Origin: Parabacteroides massiliensis
GTDB taxonomy: Bacteria > Bacteroidota > Bacteroidia > Bacteroidales > Tannerellaceae
Length of the DNA stretch: 64,000 nt
Direction: 5' to 3'
NCBI RefSeq assembly: GCF_900155425.1
Contig: NZ_LT700189.1
Coordinates: 1,295,787-1,359,786 of the forward strand
This document shows, piece by piece, positions 20,554-57,263 of the stretch; positions within the stretch are counted from its first letter, which is position 1; every line of letters starts with the position of its first letter. Under the pieces are notes generated by a model, which was not told where the DNA came from, did not search any database, and worked only from the letters and a program-made list of their open reading frames with translations. The position numbers and the translations under genes are program-made.

Positions 20554-20590
20554 AAAAGTCTGCCAAGAGCGTTATTCTTGGCAGACTTTT
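20554..20590 (+). terminator. terminator after susD1
   Basis: Perfect stem AAAAGTCTGCCAAG (20554-20567) with CTTGGCAGACTTTT (20577-20590) and following TT. Confidence 0.85.
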
Positions 20591-40378: not shown

Positions 40379-40446
40379 AATGTGCCAATATACCAATAGA
40401 AAAACCATTGAATTGGCATATTGTTGAATTGGTATATTGGCACATT
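40379..40446. repeat. 19-bp perfect inverted repeat downstream of rnpB
   Basis: AATGTGCCAATATACCAAT (40379-40397) and its exact complement at 40428-40446; the 30-base interior holds further ATTGGCATATTG. Lies between the RNase P RNA 3' end and the YihY start. Confidence 0.75.
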
Positions 40447-49945: not shown

Positions 49946-51940
49946 TTATTGATAACTTCTGTTTTCCCACCCTGGGTTTTGAACAAAATTGCCATTTACA
50001 TCCAATGTTGTGCGAGCAAAAGGTAATTTATAGTATACGGCATCATTAAATTTACGTTCATAGTAAACCACATTTCCACTCAGAGATGTAATTTGGCGGA
50101 TATCAAAATGAGGCGTGAAATATTGGGGGTCATCTTTAGAGGCCAAATATCCGTTTTCTTCTACTTCTGAACTTTCAATTCCTTTACGAAAAATGAACAT
50201 GCCCTTAGACGATTGGTTTAACTCTTCAATGGTTGTTTTACCTTCCGATTCGCCCCATCTCAGCAAGTCGAAATAACGGAATCCAGGAATTTCGAATGCA
50301 AATTCGATACGACGTTGTAATTTGTATTCTTCCCACAGATTGTGACCAACCACCGATTCGTCAAAACTATCCAAGCCTGCGCGATTACGAATTTGGTCAA
50401 CAGCATCACGTACTTCGTTTTCTCTTCCACCCAACTTATAGGCTGCTTCTGCATAGTTTAACAATGCTTCAGCATAACGGACTTGAAAATAAGAAAGCGC
50501 AGATTGAGTGTAATTAACCGTTCCGTCTTCATTAAAACGCCCTACCGTATATTTCGTCGGATAATAGCTTGTTACAGTCGATTGTGCACGTCCTGTAATC
50601 GCTAACTTTTCAGAATTCCTGAATTCTGTATGAAGCGCACTATATCTTTCCGAACGGGTCGGTACCGATAAGTCGATCCATGTACGAACCAAATACCGAT
50701 GTTCATTTCTATTAGCGAAATAACTACTGTCATAAATGATCGTGGCATAGAAACGTTTATCACGGTCAGTATACATTTGTAGGTAATTTTCGCTTTCAGC
50801 GGCCAATTCTCCATTTTCATTTAGAGTTACACCCATTTCTTTTGCTTGAGTTGTTTTCCACCATTGCATCCATTTACCTGTAGCTTTATCTCTCTGATAG
50901 TAACAATCAACCAATTCCTGCGTAGGGTATGAACCGCCACGATCCCCTCCCCAATCAGGAGAGAAATTAGTAGTCGCACCATACATACGTCCTTCCGGAT
51001 GTGAATACTTCATCGGACTGAACCCAGATCTATTTGCTTCGTTAAACATGACCGGCCAAATGGCTTCTACCGATTGATGTCCGGTAGAAGTATTGAACAG
51101 ATTACTATAATCCGGATCCAGTTGATATTTGCCAATCACTGATTTTGCAGCGTCATAAGCCAGTTGATAATAATGGTCCGCATTTTTTGAGAATCTATAA
51201 AGAGCCTTACTTTCCGTTGATCCCGATAGCCTATCGTAAAGGCCTTTTACTGACGCTTCGGCAGCACAAGCAGCAGCTAATGCAGAACGCGATTTTAACA
51301 CTTGTACAGCCTGCTCGTTTATCAATCCCAAAGTAGGCGTAACGGTTGTCTGCTTAAAATATTCCAATGCTTTGTCATAATCAGACAAAATTTGATCAAA
51401 GACCTCTTCGCGACTGTTTTGTGGCAGCATGGTCTCATCGAAAATAGTCATTGTTCTTGTTATGATCGGCATGACCCCCCAGAATCTTTCCATGTCGGCA
51501 TAGAATAATCCACGGAAAGCATAGCTTTCCGCCAACAGTTGAGCGCGTTCCGAATCGGTCATATTGGGAACTTCCGGTATACGTTCGATAGCCAAGTTCG
51601 CCTGACGGATTTTTTTATAACCGGCATCCCATGGGGCTCCGATTAGACCGGTGACGCTGTTGAGTTCATCATATTCCCTATAATTGAAGCTATACTGGCG
51701 AAACGTATTCTGGTCGCGGTCAATATTACCGCAAGCATTGTCGGACCATTGTTCCGATTGAAATGCAATATTTGCACCTGCCGGACTCCACAAATAAAAC
51801 TGATTGACCAATGTGCGCGTCAATTGAGCATTTGACCAAAATTGTTCTTCGCCAATTTTGTTAGTCGGTTCTATTCCTAACGGATCACAACCAGAAAGAC
51901 TAACCGCAGCGCATAAGGCTAATATATTTAATTTCTTCAT
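49946..51940 (-). CDS. SusD/RagB lipoprotein, locus 3
   Basis: 664 residues. Lipoprotein signal with Cys18 in LSGC. SusD features: QLTRTLVNQFYLWSPAGAN, RAQLLAESYAFRGLFYADMERFWGVMPIITR, ALSYFQVRYAEALLNYAEAAYKLGG, and RRIEFAFEIPGFRYFDLLRWGE. Binds a glycan on the cell surface as partner of the SusC encoded 19 bp upstream. No sequence closeness to the two mannan-locus SusD proteins beyond the family, and no glycosidase gene is nearby, so the substrate is unknown. Confidence 0.94.
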   Translation of the reverse strand: MKKLNILALCAAVSLSGCDPLGIEPTNKIGEEQFWSNAQLTRTLVNQFYLWSPAGANIAFQSEQWSDNACGNIDRDQNTFRQYSFNYREYDELNSVTGLIGAPWDAGYKKIRQANLAIERIPEVPNMTDSERAQLLAESYAFRGLFYADMERFWGVMPIITRTMTIFDETMLPQNSREEVFDQILSDYDKALEYFKQTTVTPTLGLINEQAVQVLKSRSALAAACAAEASVKGLYDRLSGSTESKALYRFSKNADHYYQLAYDAAKSVIGKYQLDPDYSNLFNTSTGHQSVEAIWPVMFNEANRSGFSPMKYSHPEGRMYGATTNFSPDWGGDRGGSYPTQELVDCYYQRDKATGKWMQWWKTTQAKEMGVTLNENGELAAESENYLQMYTDRDKRFYATIIYDSSYFANRNEHRYLVRTWIDLSVPTRSERYSALHTEFRNSEKLAITGRAQSTVTSYYPTKYTVGRFNEDGTVNYTQSALSYFQVRYAEALLNYAEAAYKLGGRENEVRDAVDQIRNRAGLDSFDESVVGHNLWEEYKLQRRIEFAFEIPGFRYFDLLRWGESEGKTTIEELNQSSKGMFIFRKGIESSEVEENGYLASKDDPQYFTPHFDIRQITSLSGNVVYYERKFNDAVYYKLPFARTTLDVNGNFVQNPGWENRSYQ

Positions 51941-51959: not shown

Positions 51960-54900
51960 TTACAATGTTAATGTTGCACTCAATGTGAATGAACGTTGAG
52001 TCGGATAGCTTCCCAATTTGTTACCTCCCCAAATAGAGTTAGCGGGCAAATATTCAGGATCTGTCATGTTATGGAACGGGTTGCTTTTCTTCACCCATGT
52101 ACAAACATTGTTGGCAATGAAGTTTACGCTTAACCCTTTGATGTAATCTACTTTTTTAAGAACCCGACGTTTCAAATCATAGCTGACACTGATGTTCTTC
52201 AATTTCAGATATGAAGCATCGTATGCCCATACATCGACATAATTATACCCCCATCCGTAGCTGGAATTTGTCGGCAATGGAAGTTTATTGGCAATAGGAT
52301 TGCTTGGCGTATAAGATTCTTGGAATAAATATTTACCATATTTCCAGTAATAATCCTGTTGCGAACGAGCCGGAGATGTCACATCACCGGAGACACTGGT
52401 CGCTCCTTGGAAAAAGACTTCAAAACTAAAATCTTTCCATCCCATACCCAATGTGACACCATACAATGTTTGGGGCGTCGTACCTCCACCTTCATTATAT
52501 GCATAGTCGGCAATACCTAACACACCATCGCCGTTACGGTCATCCATACGGAACGTACCGATCGTGTGGTTGCGTTTAAAATGCAAATAGGAGTTATACA
52601 TATCATCGTAAGAAGTGAAAATACCATTTGTCTGCCATGAAGTTCTATAGGTTTCCGCATGAGCATTTACCCCCAAATCATTCAGGTTGGCATAGTAATA
52701 ATCGGTACTTTTATCAGCATGTCTTACTGTTACTTCTTCCCAATGCGTATAGTTTGCACCAAGCCTATAAGTGAAGTCGCCGATACGGTCGTTCCAATTT
52801 AAAGAAAATTCCACACCGCCTTTATGAGTTGTCACGTATGGAGCATTCATTTTCGGCGTATTAGGCAAACCTAAGATCGGGGTATAAGTCAGCTCCGGAT
52901 TCATATCTATTTCATCACCCTTATCCAAGTACAGGTAGGTATCGAATGATCCGGACAAACGGTCTTTCAAAAAACTGAAATCAACACCTCCACTAATTTG
53001 CTGTGACTCGCCCCATGTCAGATTGCTGGATACATTGGTTTCTGTCCAAGCTGAATTTGCCCCCATGTTTTCTCCTAACAGAATCGTATTAGTCAGGCCA
53101 TATTGGTTCATATAGCTGAATGGTTGGGACAATTCGTTACCCACAATACCATAGCCGACACGTATCTTGAATGAGTTGATCAAATCAGTGTTCAGAATGT
53201 CTTTGATGAATGTTTCCTCCGTAAGCATCCACCCTGCTGATGCAGCGTAGAAGAATCCCCAACGTTTATCCGGGTGGTAGCACAACGATCCGTTATAGTT
53301 GGCACTCAATTGTAACATATATTTGCTGTCGTAATCATAAGTGAGACGACCAACCAAAGAAGCTGACCCCCATAGCCCTTCGTCCCCGCTCATTGAGTCC
53401 ATGGTCGATCCTCCGTTTATCTGCGTATTATAAATAGCCGGATAACCATATTTTTTAGCCATTGTCGAATTAGTCCTTCTCTTTTGACTGGTATAGTTGA
53501 GCATCGCACTCAAGTTGTGTTTGCCAAACGAACGGACATAGTCGGCTTGGACAATACCGGTTGTCAACGAATAATTATTCCAAGTCTGAGACAATTTGGC
53601 ATTATTGGGGTTATAGCTGTTTTCCTGAGTTGAATACGGAGCACTGTATACGCCTATTTGCGGATATTCGAATGTCTTATTCATGGAATTGCTGTAGTTG
53701 AAGTTGACACTTGTACTAACAGATAATCCTTCTACCCACGGTAAACTCCATTTTAAACCGATGTTACTTTGCAAACGATAGTCATCTGTATTATTGAAAC
53801 CTGTTCGTAAGCGGGCATCCAAGCTATTGGATCTTTCCAATCCTGTTGTCCAGTTTCGAGGAATATTGTTCGCTTCATTGTCTTCAATCAAGATGTTATT
53901 AAAAATATTATCACCGCCATACGGTTTTTTATTTTTAGCCATCACTCCATTCAAATTCAATGTAAATCTTAAACTTTTATCCTTCAAAAGATAAGCATCC
54001 GTATTGACAATGGCGTTATACTGTTCATAGTTGTAAGAATCACTGATACCAGATTGGTTCATATATCCCAAACTCGAATAATATCTAACTCTTTCGCTAC
54101 CGCCTCTTACGCTCAAGTTTGTTTGTGACATGGGTTGAACATGGTCGAACCAATCCCATGGGTCATAGTCGCCATAATAGTTTTCAATGTCCCCACCTTG
54201 TGTTTTAAATGGATTGAAATAGTCGGCGATTTCATTCTGTGTAAACCCTAAACCGTATTTTTGGTTAACCATGTCGGTGATTTCCTGACGGCCATATCCT
54301 TGAGAAGAGAGGTGAGCCATGTAGTATTTGGACATTTCCGTTGCGTTGTATGCCGGGCTTTCAGCCATGCTTGCTGCATACAATTCGTTCTTTTTATTCA
54401 CGTAGTCCCAAGTACTCATAGGCTTGAACTTATAAGACGGCGTCATTATGGTCATTTTTTGGCTTACCGATATTTCCAGCATGCCATCTTGTCCTTTTTT
54501 GGTAGTCACCACCACAACACCGTCTTTTGCACGCGGACCGTATACAGCTGTAGCTGACGCATCCTTCAGAATACTCATAGAAGCAATGTCATCCGGACGT
54601 AAACGGTTGAAGAAGACTTCACCTTGGCTGGTTTCCATTACCACATCGTCAATTACATACAGTATTTGGCTACCACCACGAATCCAAATTTTGGATGTTT
54701 CACCTGGGGCTCCCGACCGTGCTTGTGAGATAATACCTGATACACGACCACCTAATCCGTCACTGGGAGAAGTTACCGGTAATTTGGCTATTGATTCGAT
54801 TTTGACGTTTACGGCTGCCGCAGTCAGTGTTTTGGTTTTCTGAACGCCACTAAAACCAGTCACCACAACTTCGTCTAAGGCCTGTGAATCTTCCTGAAGT

Positions 54901-55229
54901 TTGACGTTCAAGTTAGAAGTTCCTGTGTACTTGACCTCTTGAGTTGTGTAACCGACAAAAGAAATTTGAATCGTAGCTCCATTCTTGACATCTTCTAATA
55001 CAACTCTACCGTCTAAGTCGGTGATATTACCATTAGTTGTACCTTTTACAACTACAGATGCTCCGGTTACAGGACCGAAATCATCCACAACAAAAACCGT
55101 CACCTTCCCATTTTGCTGGGAAATGTTTACGTTTGGTTTAATGGGAACTATGTCTGCCATTATGTTCTCTGACGAACAAAATGCACCGGCAAGTAGCATT
55201 AAACCAATTGGATTGAAGTTTTTCAACAT
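51960..55229 (-). CDS. SusC/RagA TonB-linked outer membrane transporter, locus 3
   Basis: 1089 residues. Signal peptide to about 25, carboxypeptidase-D-like domain (KVTVFVVDDFGPVTGASVVVKG), then LDEVVVTGFSGVQ, a plug (IWIRGGSQILYVIDD, DASATAVYGPRAKDGVVVVTTKKG) and the beta-barrel to the C-terminus (FTLSATLTL). No regulator gene is adjacent. Upstream is an invertible-looking promoter segment (55516-55690), so expression may be phase variable. Confidence 0.95.
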   Translation of the reverse strand: MLKNFNPIGLMLLAGAFCSSENIMADIVPIKPNVNISQQNGKVTVFVVDDFGPVTGASVVVKGTTNGNITDLDGRVVLEDVKNGATIQISFVGYTTQEVKYTGTSNLNVKLQEDSQALDEVVVTGFSGVQKTKTLTAAAVNVKIESIAKLPVTSPSDGLGGRVSGIISQARSGAPGETSKIWIRGGSQILYVIDDVVMETSQGEVFFNRLRPDDIASMSILKDASATAVYGPRAKDGVVVVTTKKGQDGMLEISVSQKMTIMTPSYKFKPMSTWDYVNKKNELYAASMAESPAYNATEMSKYYMAHLSSQGYGRQEITDMVNQKYGLGFTQNEIADYFNPFKTQGGDIENYYGDYDPWDWFDHVQPMSQTNLSVRGGSERVRYYSSLGYMNQSGISDSYNYEQYNAIVNTDAYLLKDKSLRFTLNLNGVMAKNKKPYGGDNIFNNILIEDNEANNIPRNWTTGLERSNSLDARLRTGFNNTDDYRLQSNIGLKWSLPWVEGLSVSTSVNFNYSNSMNKTFEYPQIGVYSAPYSTQENSYNPNNAKLSQTWNNYSLTTGIVQADYVRSFGKHNLSAMLNYTSQKRRTNSTMAKKYGYPAIYNTQINGGSTMDSMSGDEGLWGSASLVGRLTYDYDSKYMLQLSANYNGSLCYHPDKRWGFFYAASAGWMLTEETFIKDILNTDLINSFKIRVGYGIVGNELSQPFSYMNQYGLTNTILLGENMGANSAWTETNVSSNLTWGESQQISGGVDFSFLKDRLSGSFDTYLYLDKGDEIDMNPELTYTPILGLPNTPKMNAPYVTTHKGGVEFSLNWNDRIGDFTYRLGANYTHWEEVTVRHADKSTDYYYANLNDLGVNAHAETYRTSWQTNGIFTSYDDMYNSYLHFKRNHTIGTFRMDDRNGDGVLGIADYAYNEGGGTTPQTLYGVTLGMGWKDFSFEVFFQGATSVSGDVTSPARSQQDYYWKYGKYLFQESYTPSNPIANKLPLPTNSSYGWGYNYVDVWAYDASYLKLKNISVSYDLKRRVLKKVDYIKGLSVNFIANNVCTWVKKSNPFHNMTDPEYLPANSIWGGNKLGSYPTQRSFTLSATLTL

Positions 55230-55515
55230 AATTAATTTAGTTTGATATTAATTAGAAATAGGTATAAATTGTGTTTTTTCATAATAAACAAAACTGATTA
55301 TATATCACAAACTACGCAGTTCATGCATCATAAGCAATGTTATTCATGTCTTCCAAAACATTTTATTTTCTTTTCACCCGTATCATTAATTTATTATATT
55401 TCGGGATATTACGTTGCAACCGTAAATACATTCACATTCACATATCCTCATAAAAAGTTAAATTTCCTATATTGCCATGAATTTTTATTTTTTCCGTTGT
55501 CATATCAATATTTGT

Positions 55516-55690
55516 TTAATTAGTTCCATAAGAACTGTGGTTTTTTATTCACACCAATTAACTAAATCAGCGTATTTTCAAGAGTAGATTTGTTAATTTA
55601 TAAAAAACAGAATGTTTTTTCGCTTTTTATCAAAGCGTTATTGTATATTTGTCACAAATTTTATATCGTAGTTCTTATGGAACTAATTAA
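55516..55690. promoter_or_regulatory. candidate invertible promoter of susC locus 3 (drawn in OFF state)
   Basis: Perfect 21-bp inverted repeats at 55516-55536 and 55670-55690, each with the palindromic core AGTTC-TTATG-GAACT, enclose 133 bp. Inside is TATATTTG (55644-55651), a consensus -7 box on the plus strand, pointing away from the minus-strand susC. No TAnnTTTG box for the minus strand was found between the segment and susC. Inversion would aim the promoter at susC with a leader of about 300 nt. Confidence 0.75.
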
Positions 55691-55865
55691 ACGCAAGTTT
55701 ATTTTAACATTTACAAGTAAAGAATAAACAAATATCAACAAATCAACACCAACAATTGGCCTCTTAGCCCCTAAACAATCCGAGCATAGATATATCACCC
55801 TGCATTTTTCCGGTATGCTTCTCGATCATAATCCTATTAGATAGCAATAGGAATTTAACTAAAAG

Positions 55866-55905
55866 AAAAACGGGATAAAAGTATTTTTACTTTTATCCCG
55901 TTTTT
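55866..55905. terminator. serS terminator, bidirectional
   Basis: Long stem AAAAACGGGATAAAAGTA (55866-55883) with its exact complement at 55888-55905, T runs on both strands. Confidence 0.9.
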
Positions 55906-55945
55906 CTTCAGAGCAAATGAATTGCTCTTGATTATAATATCTTAT

Positions 55946-57220
55946 TTACTTAATCATATCAAATCCCGTATACGGAACCAACGCTTTGGGGATGCGGATA
56001 CCTTCGGGGGTTTGGTTGTTTTCGAGCAAGGCGGCTACGATACGCGGCAAAGCCAATGCGCTTCCATTCAGCGTGTGGCAGAGCTGTGTCTTTTTGTTTT
56101 CGTCACGGTAACGGCATTTCAGACGGTTTGCCTGGTAATTGTCGAAGTTTGAAACCGAACTTACTTCCAACCAACGTTTCTGGGCTTCCGAATAAACTTC
56201 GAAGTCGAAGCAGATAGCTGCCGTGAAACTCATATCACCACCACAAAGGCGCAAGATACGATAAGGAAGTTCCAGTTTCTGGAGCAACCCTTCGACATGG
56301 TCCAGCATTTCCTGATGAGACTGTTTGGAATGTTCCGGTTTGTCGATACGAACCAATTCCACTTTGGAGAATTCATGCAGGCGGTTCAGTCCGCGTACAT
56401 CTTTTCCATAAGAGCCGGCTTCGCGACGGAAACACTGCGTATAGGCACAATTCTTGATCGGCAACTGCTTTTCATCGAGGATAACATCACGATAGATATT
56501 GGTGACCGGAACTTCGGCTGTCGGGATCAGATAAAGGTCATCCACTTCGCAATGATACATCTGTCCTTCTTTATCGGGCAACTGGCCTGTACCATAACCG
56601 GAAGCTGCATTCACGACTGTCGGCGGCATGACTTCCGTATAACCGGATTTGCGGGCTTCATCCAGGAAGAAGTTTATCAGCGCACGCTGCAACTGCGCAC
56701 CCTGTCCTTTGTAAACCGGGAAACCGGCACCTGTGATCTTCACGCCCAGGTCGAAATCGATCAGGTCATATTTCTTTGCCAACTCCCAATGAGGCAGTGC
56801 GTCTTTCGGCAGTTCCGTCTCCATACCGCCCATCTTTTCAACCTTATTATCGTCAGCACCCACACCTTCGGGCACTTCTTCGTAAGGGACGTTCGGGATT
56901 GTATAGAGCAGGTTCTGCATATCTTCGGCTGCCTGATCCATTTCTGCCTGGAGAGTCTTGTTGGCTTCCTTGATCTCGGCAACACGTTGCTTAGCGATCT
57001 CGGCTTCTTCTTTTTTACCTTCTTTCATCAGCATGCCGATGGCCTTCGAAGCCTGGTTCACCTCTGCCAGGTTTTTATCTAATTGATTTTGCGCACCACG
57101 TCTTTTATCGTTCAGTTCGATCACTTTTGCTATGCTTTCCCGTGCACCTTTAAAGTGTTTCTTTTCCAGACCACGGATCACCCGGTCTGTTTCTTCCGTA
57201 ATTACTTTAAGTGTCAACAT
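55946..57220 (-). CDS. serS: seryl-tRNA synthetase
   Basis: 424 residues, standard length. Charges tRNA-Ser with serine. The N-terminal antiparallel coiled coil (about 30-105) binds the tRNA long arm; the class II core has motif 2 (CFRREAGSYGKDVRGLNRLHEF) and motif 3 (NGSALALPRIVAALLENNQ). Cytosolic. A -7 box lies 30 bp upstream and a strong terminator follows. Confidence 0.97.
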   Translation of the reverse strand: MLTLKVITEETDRVIRGLEKKHFKGARESIAKVIELNDKRRGAQNQLDKNLAEVNQASKAIGMLMKEGKKEEAEIAKQRVAEIKEANKTLQAEMDQAAEDMQNLLYTIPNVPYEEVPEGVGADDNKVEKMGGMETELPKDALPHWELAKKYDLIDFDLGVKITGAGFPVYKGQGAQLQRALINFFLDEARKSGYTEVMPPTVVNAASGYGTGQLPDKEGQMYHCEVDDLYLIPTAEVPVTNIYRDVILDEKQLPIKNCAYTQCFRREAGSYGKDVRGLNRLHEFSKVELVRIDKPEHSKQSHQEMLDHVEGLLQKLELPYRILRLCGGDMSFTAAICFDFEVYSEAQKRWLEVSSVSNFDNYQANRLKCRYRDENKKTQLCHTLNGSALALPRIVAALLENNQTPEGIRIPKALVPYTGFDMIK

Positions 57221-57257: not shown

Positions 57258-57263
57258 ATCAAG

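Follow-up and report, generated by a model that had tools for sequence, protein, structure and literature searches.

Invertible regions at susCD and other surface loci

The closest described system is that of Bacteroides fragilis, whose invertase Tsr0667 controls susCD shufflons and nine other invertible regions (Nakayama-Imaohji 2009, as cited in the parts of PMC4747536 and PMC11852207 that were available). Single invertible promoters are also established in the genus, as for the B. fragilis capsule promoters, worked by the serine recombinase Mpi, and the S-layer promoter of B. thetaiotaomicron BT1927 (PMC4747536, PMC12632263, PMC12548429, in excerpt). Among the invertons of the hCom2 community, group 131, located at TonB/SusD genes, is the largest Bacteroidota group, and the sections of the source consulted report no significantly linked invertase for it (PMC11892184). 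Regarding their relevance to the host, susC/susD-proximal regions and capsule promoters are, according to the consulted parts of PMC10939037, the most prevalent regions whose orientation differs between inflammation and health in inflammatory bowel disease.

The locus described here lies upstream of a susCD operon of Parabacteroides massiliensis, and it was analysed within a stretch of 64,000 nucleotides, referred to as the window. Its layout resembles that of the Mpi capsule and BT1927 promoters, for a promoter between inverted repeats would switch a surface-molecule operon; the likeness concerns the layout and not the repeat sequence, and Mpi belongs to a different recombinase class from the tyrosine recombinase candidate proposed below. 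Like the Tsr0667 system, this one would combine a single candidate recombinase (L039), encoded beside susC genes whose layout resembles a shufflon, with roughly a dozen site pairs far from it, mostly at susC operons; it is found in another genus, and at the window locus there is one on/off pair and no shufflon. On this comparison, made with the available parts of the literature, L039 may plausibly be a relative or a functional counterpart of Tsr0667. As for inverton group 131 (PMC11892184), the difference is that an invertase candidate is named here, the two groups being likened by gene context, as far as the consulted text gives it, and not by repeat motif. The limited literature text examined did not contain AGTTC-N5-GAACT as a stated repeat consensus. 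The motif is presumably a published repeat class of B. fragilis.

The region from 55514 to 55692 is very probably a phase-variation switch that holds susCD in the OFF state, one among at least 12 site pairs of this genome for which L039 would most likely be the common recombinase. Inversion of the window segment itself, its transcription and the enzyme acting on it are what we infer from the comparisons reported in the following sections.

The probable switch upstream of susC

The features of the locus are collected in Table 1. The first-pass annotation had proposed a phase-variable promoter between perfect inverted repeats of 21 bp; the repeats are indeed perfect, their length is 23 bp, and the left arm reads GTTTAATTAGTTCCATAAGAACT. 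The palindromic core is as described there (AGTTC-CATAA-GAACT on one side, AGTTC-TTATG-GAACT on the other), and so is the distance of 133 nt between the arms. By a rough estimate, uncorrected for A+T content, the chance of meeting a perfect inverted repeat of 23 bp within 1 kb in 64 kb of random DNA is about 1e-6. Inverted 15-mers within 1 kb occur at four other places in the window: at 20554, near 40379, at the hairpin at 55863 and in a short tandem repeat at 57263.

Table 1. Features of the putative susCD switch and of its surroundings, in window positions
Feature	Position	Strand	Remarks
susD/ragB family lipoprotein	49946..51940	-	664 aa; PF07980, PF14322
susC/ragA TonB-dependent outer membrane protein	51960..55229	-	1089 aa; TIGR04056
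Leader, segment to susC start	55230..55513	-	No TAnnTTTG box on the susC strand
Whole switch	55514..55692		179 bp; genome position C1:1351300-1351478
Left arm (susC side)	55514..55536	+	GTTTAATT + AGTTC-CATAA-GAACT
Inner invertible segment (putative)	55537..55669	none	133 bp
Second TAnnTTTG box, TAGATTTG	55585..55592	+	Same direction as TATATTTG
-7 box, TATATTTG	55644..55651	+	33 bp from right end of site pair; away from susC (OFF)
Right arm	55670..55692	-	Exact reverse complement of left arm
Perfect hairpin	55863..55908		21-bp arms, 4-nt loop, T runs; -29.1 kcal/mol, z -9.5
serS	55946..57220	-	Other-side neighbour; 3' end toward segment

The single -7 box that had been reported to face away from susC has the direction claimed, and a second TAnnTTTG box accompanies it. 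The absence of a consensus box toward susC was likewise borne out, since no TAnnTTTG box occurs on the minus strand from 55200 to 55945; with relaxed patterns, the stretch separating the segment from susC yields a single poor candidate on the susC strand, CAGTTTTG at 55296. The locus is called OFF because both -7 boxes face away from susC and none faces it. When the segment is flipped in silico, both boxes turn to susC, and TATATTTG then begins at 55562 on the minus strand; no clear TTTG element at -33 was seen upstream of TATATTTG. The hairpin between the segment and the 3' end of serS is a probable bidirectional terminator, so that the promoter of the OFF state would fire into it and its transcript would stop before running antisense into serS.

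The locus has three features of Bacteroidales invertible promoters: near-perfect intergenic inverted repeats, internal promoter boxes that all point one way, and a surface-molecule gene that is downstream in one orientation. Three or more sites exchanging coding segments, the hallmark of a SusCD shufflon, were not found at the locus, which consists of one intergenic pair, the next exact site on the contig being no nearer than ~119 kb. On the far side of susD, between 44604 and 47902, there are Mu-like transposition genes, encoding a transposase (phrog_310, 672 aa), an AAA-domain DNA transposition protein (phrog_296) and a small phage protein, and a Mu-like prophage, or what is left of one, may adjoin the operon on its 3' side.

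The proposed mechanism is as follows. A tyrosine recombinase, acting in trans, would bind the AGTTC/GAACT half-sites of both arms, and strand exchange within the matching 5-bp centre would turn the segment round, outward-facing promoter included. As assembled, the promoter would point to the terminator on the serS side, leaving susCD silent; in the other orientation (ON), TATATTTG would point to susC, and transcription would begin some 0.3 kb ahead of the start codon. One recombinase, L039, would most likely serve the whole set of site pairs.

A family of paired sites across the genome

The genome of the window (5.0 Mb in 23 contigs) contains 25 exact AGTTCN5GAACT sites, against 7 for the reversed control. 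With one mismatch allowed, the genome-wide counts are 214 and 203, and the signal is drowned; it thus sits in the exact sites and in the matched pairs. At least 12 pairs, counting that of the window, were recognised by the reverse complementarity of their two N5, which was the criterion for pairing. Both sites are exact in five of these 12 pairs, and in the other seven one arm has a single mismatch. Of the 25 exact sites, seven lack a matched partner, and one repeats the L023 site at the start of a contig. The spacing varies from 148 to 1399, and N5 differs between most pairs while the core is common to all.

All 12 pairs adjoin a SusC/RagA, ECF-sigma or FecR gene according to family searches, so many distant segments with one common site motif lie near susCD genes. 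The neighbour is a SusC/RagA or TonB receptor for the window pair, L016, L018, L019, L020, L021, L025 (on both sides), L027 and L029; it is an ECF sigma factor with FecR for L017 and L024; L023 adjoins FecR, and past its right arm there is susC at the start of contig C2. The right neighbour of L018 is a tricorn-like protease. By the direction of the boxes, seven pairs are OFF (window, L016, L018, L019, L020, L024, L029) and two are ON (L017 and L027, the latter having its only box 150 bp from the end); two have genes on both sides (L023, L025), and one, L021, is disrupted by a DDE transposase gene. In the latter (L021:6726-8139, or C1:1470725-1472138), located upstream of susC, the 300-aa transposase gene (PF01609), presumably IS982-like, lies inside the segment and stretches the spacing to 1399; this insertion may cripple the switch. 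The pairs at L025:4747-5219 and L164:13446-14011 are placed between two divergent susC genes, hence inversion would swap which operon is on and not switch one on and off.

Promoter placement was examined for 47 pairs from this and related genomes, orthologues included, which are thus not independent. Of the 47 pairs, 31 have a TAnnTTTG box 15-45 bp inside one end only and none has it inside both, with 2.6 expected from shuffled interiors; the 16 pairs without such a box include all six that lie near L039. The distances from box to end are 21-23, 30-36 and 43 bp, clusters about one helical turn apart, with counts inflated by orthologues. The left arms of the 47 pairs have 26 different N5. Half-site mismatches (n = 23) concern the outer half-site in 20 cases and the inner one in 3, and most of them read AGTCC; the inner half-sites, carried along with the segment, stay more intact than the outer ones.

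Inversion between related genomes

The 47 loci were compared with each other, and in 28 comparisons the alignments of the segment and of one flank or both exceeded fixed scores. Of these, L186/L189 involves a single genome and was set aside. Both flanks agree in 14 comparisons, seven with the segment inverted (L018/L195, with 54 nt of segment aligned, L025/L184, L163/L165, L164/L167, L181/L198, L189/L198 and L193/L197) and seven with the same orientation (L017/L178, L020/L201, L029/L183, L166/L177, L181/L189, L182/L191 and L209/L210). Six more have one usable flank, three being inverted (L016/L186, L023/L192, L024/L185) and three in the same orientation (L016/L179, L029/L196, L183/L196). In seven, divergent susC paralogues blur the identity of the flanks and leave the orientation ambiguous, and L025/L184 and L193/L197 carry some of this risk too. 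The cleanest flip is between L164 of genome G016 and L167 of G017, with flanks 99.7% and 98.9% identical and a 536-nt segment 100% identical on the opposite strand. The genome of the window takes part in a flip at L023, compared with L192 of G013, with 99.4% identity over 154 nt of segment and 99.1% over 108 nt of the right flank, the only flank used.

Contig ends provide a further kind of evidence. In G041, contig C104 ends 3 bp inside a site and C143 begins 3 bp inside its complement, the two ends being reverse complements, presumably of one locus. In the genome of the window, C2 starts exactly where the two orientations of the L023 pair would diverge, and its first 127 bases are identical to those of C4 starting at 378441; C4 then enters transposase-like sequence, making an assembly tangle a possible alternative there. 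These ends at the predicted divergence bases agree with inversion. Judged from the alignments between genomes, inversion is real for the AGTTC-N5-GAACT site family, and with the contig ends and the strongly non-random placement of the boxes it supports the phase-variable promoter that had been proposed for the window; the OFF call derives from the box directions given above.

As for the window segment, no flipped copy occurs in 41 genomes: a 1-kb query matches the segment beyond the bare site only in its own genome, in one orientation. Within that genome, the query matches its own locus, the arms, the hairpin and a further two stretches aligning to the susC start; in the relatives, the matches fall in serS or in the susC start, and G019 has the bare site once more, at a different SusC-like gene. 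A contig scan for the window SusC gave one close relative, from P. faecis (77% identical), and three distant ones. The 5' neighbourhood of the P. faecis susC differs from that of the window, and the gene is still downstream of a matched pair (L079, 4821/5020) with both arms AGTCC-TTGGA-GAACT, a spacing of 199, and a TAnnTTTG box 32 bp inside one end and directed away from susC. The presence of two different switches of the same kind ahead of orthologous susC genes would favour a selected function.

Candidate recombinases

The expectation that the recombinase is encoded elsewhere fits the genome, with 26 PF00589 matches spread over it and none within 100 kb of the segment on its contig. Ten of the 26 were scanned against NCBIfam, none scoring above the cut-off of an invertase model, and three (L042, L056 and L039) were searched for in 38 genomes of the genus. 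L056 was set aside, as the presence of its homologues (59% identity or more) is not associated with site enrichment (p = 0.79 for the ratio, 0.086 for raw counts).

L039 (C3:342118-343287) is a protein of 390 aa with arm-binding, SAM-like and catalytic integrase domains, and it contains TGLR, HMARH, LLGH and TEIY, which we take to be its catalytic motifs. A homologue with at least 65% identity exists in 19 of the 38 genomes, that of G005 being partial, and six further genomes have a weaker one that is also partial; 24 of these 25 genomes have a single match at E <= 1e-60. At least 10 sites are present in 13 of the 19 genomes with L039 (>=65%) versus 2 of the other 19. The corresponding Mann-Whitney test gives p = 8e-5 for raw counts and 0.011 for the ratio to the control, or 0.056 and 0.086, respectively, when the six weaker homologues are counted as present, and the association is confounded by descent and genome size. 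When enriched genomes are defined by at least 10 sites and at least twice the control, L039 is present in 9 of the 11 in the genus.

A susC homologue is near L039 in all 16 regions read, susD being judged by size and place only. A perfect site pair lies 4.5-5.5 kb from L039 in six of the 16; in the other ten, the genome of the window included, no pair within one mismatch per site was found near it. Two comparisons of such pairs are flips, namely G012/G042 and G016/G017. In G022 and G047, both arms of the pair are in frame in two oppositely oriented susC genes, encoding Ser-Ser-Ala-Arg-Thr; these in-frame sites, AGTTCTGCNAGAACT, are perfect in both genomes, and the second susC is without the usual N-terminal start, a shufflon-like layout. 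The sites are at L166:4565 and 5172 and at L177:3541 and 4226, and elsewhere SSAKT appears as a degenerate version. A coding-site search in the genome of the window gave the counterpart AGTTCTGCAAAGACT, which has two mismatches and occurs in three copies, one inverted; this form is also that of most other L039 regions where such a site was found. An inverted-repeat search around L039 in five regions returned mainly long susC homologies. In Bacteroides stercorirosoris, a relative 54% identical to L039 is located near a susC without the usual start.

Outside the genus, a relative of L039 (E <= 1e-60) occurs in 3 of 147 genomes of the order; site enrichment occurs in two, G155 (12 v 1) and G174 (10 v 2), neither of which is among those three, and another recombinase with the same site is possibly at work there.

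Among 99 recombinase loci with flanks of ~1.2-1.5 kb, three have a site pair, and they represent two genes (L042, which is the same as L089, and L098), neither of the L039 family. L042 (C1:205624-206850) has 409 aa and lies 443 bp from the L016 pair. Both -7 boxes of that segment (L016:7622-9666) point to the adjoining L042, and the switch might thus control a recombinase.

Alternative explanations

That the promoter is inverted by another tyrosine recombinase, L042 or a further one of the genome, is unlikely but deserves to be weighed. L042 adjoins a pair whose promoter points at it, its relative L098 in G023 also adjoins a pair, and L039 was not found in two site-rich genomes, G004 (490 contigs, 95% complete) and G044 (80% complete); moreover, the comparison across the genus covers only three of the 26 recombinases. 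However, L042 was rejected as the master recombinase, since a homologue with at least 65% identity exists in only 3 of the 38 genomes; none exists at this level in the most site-rich ones (G019, G021 and G023), and G013 and G014 have pairs homologous to the L016 pair without L042. It is improbable that the window holds a fossil, a switch that formerly recombined and is now fixed in the OFF orientation, with susCD silent or expressed from an unrecognised promoter. The single assembled orientation and the lack of a flipped copy among the 41 genomes would suit it, but susC and susD both have long, open frames, and the arms are perfect over 23 bp when 7 of the 12 pairs of the genome have an arm mismatch, hence there is no sign of decay.

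The two readings that dispense with recombination at these sites as a switch are both very improbable. A short segment with perfect terminal repeats could be a small, non-autonomous, MITE-like transposable element, but the 1-kb query found no second copy of the inner segment in the genome, and the pairs differ in length and in N5, yet share the core. Similarly, each arm is itself a short palindrome, as would befit the binding site of an ordinary regulator or a hairpin that does not recombine; against this, sister segments are found inverted, and an N5 that is reverse-complementary within the 12 pairs (the property by which they were paired) and different between most of them fits a crossover region, not a regulator site.

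Implications for SusCD switching

Returning to the preferred reading, an invertible promoter served by L039, there is about an even chance that L039 and its orthologues act as a genus-wide master switch of SusCD-type nutrient uptake, which would reshuffle the adjoining susC genes through the Ser-Ser-Ala-Arg/Lys-Thr coding site and, by an identical site logic, invert roughly a dozen susCD and ECF-sigma promoters at a distance. Through its 5-bp centre, each pair would stay private, so that the switches would vary independently.

In conclusion, the window locus is an ordinary, well-formed case of a switch type that is already known; the assignment of a master invertase to L039 is more interesting than the window switch, but unproven. 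If L039 is the enzyme, deletion of one gene would fix an entire group of nutrient receptors of a gut commensal in their current states, and the cost and benefit of SusCD switching would become directly testable.
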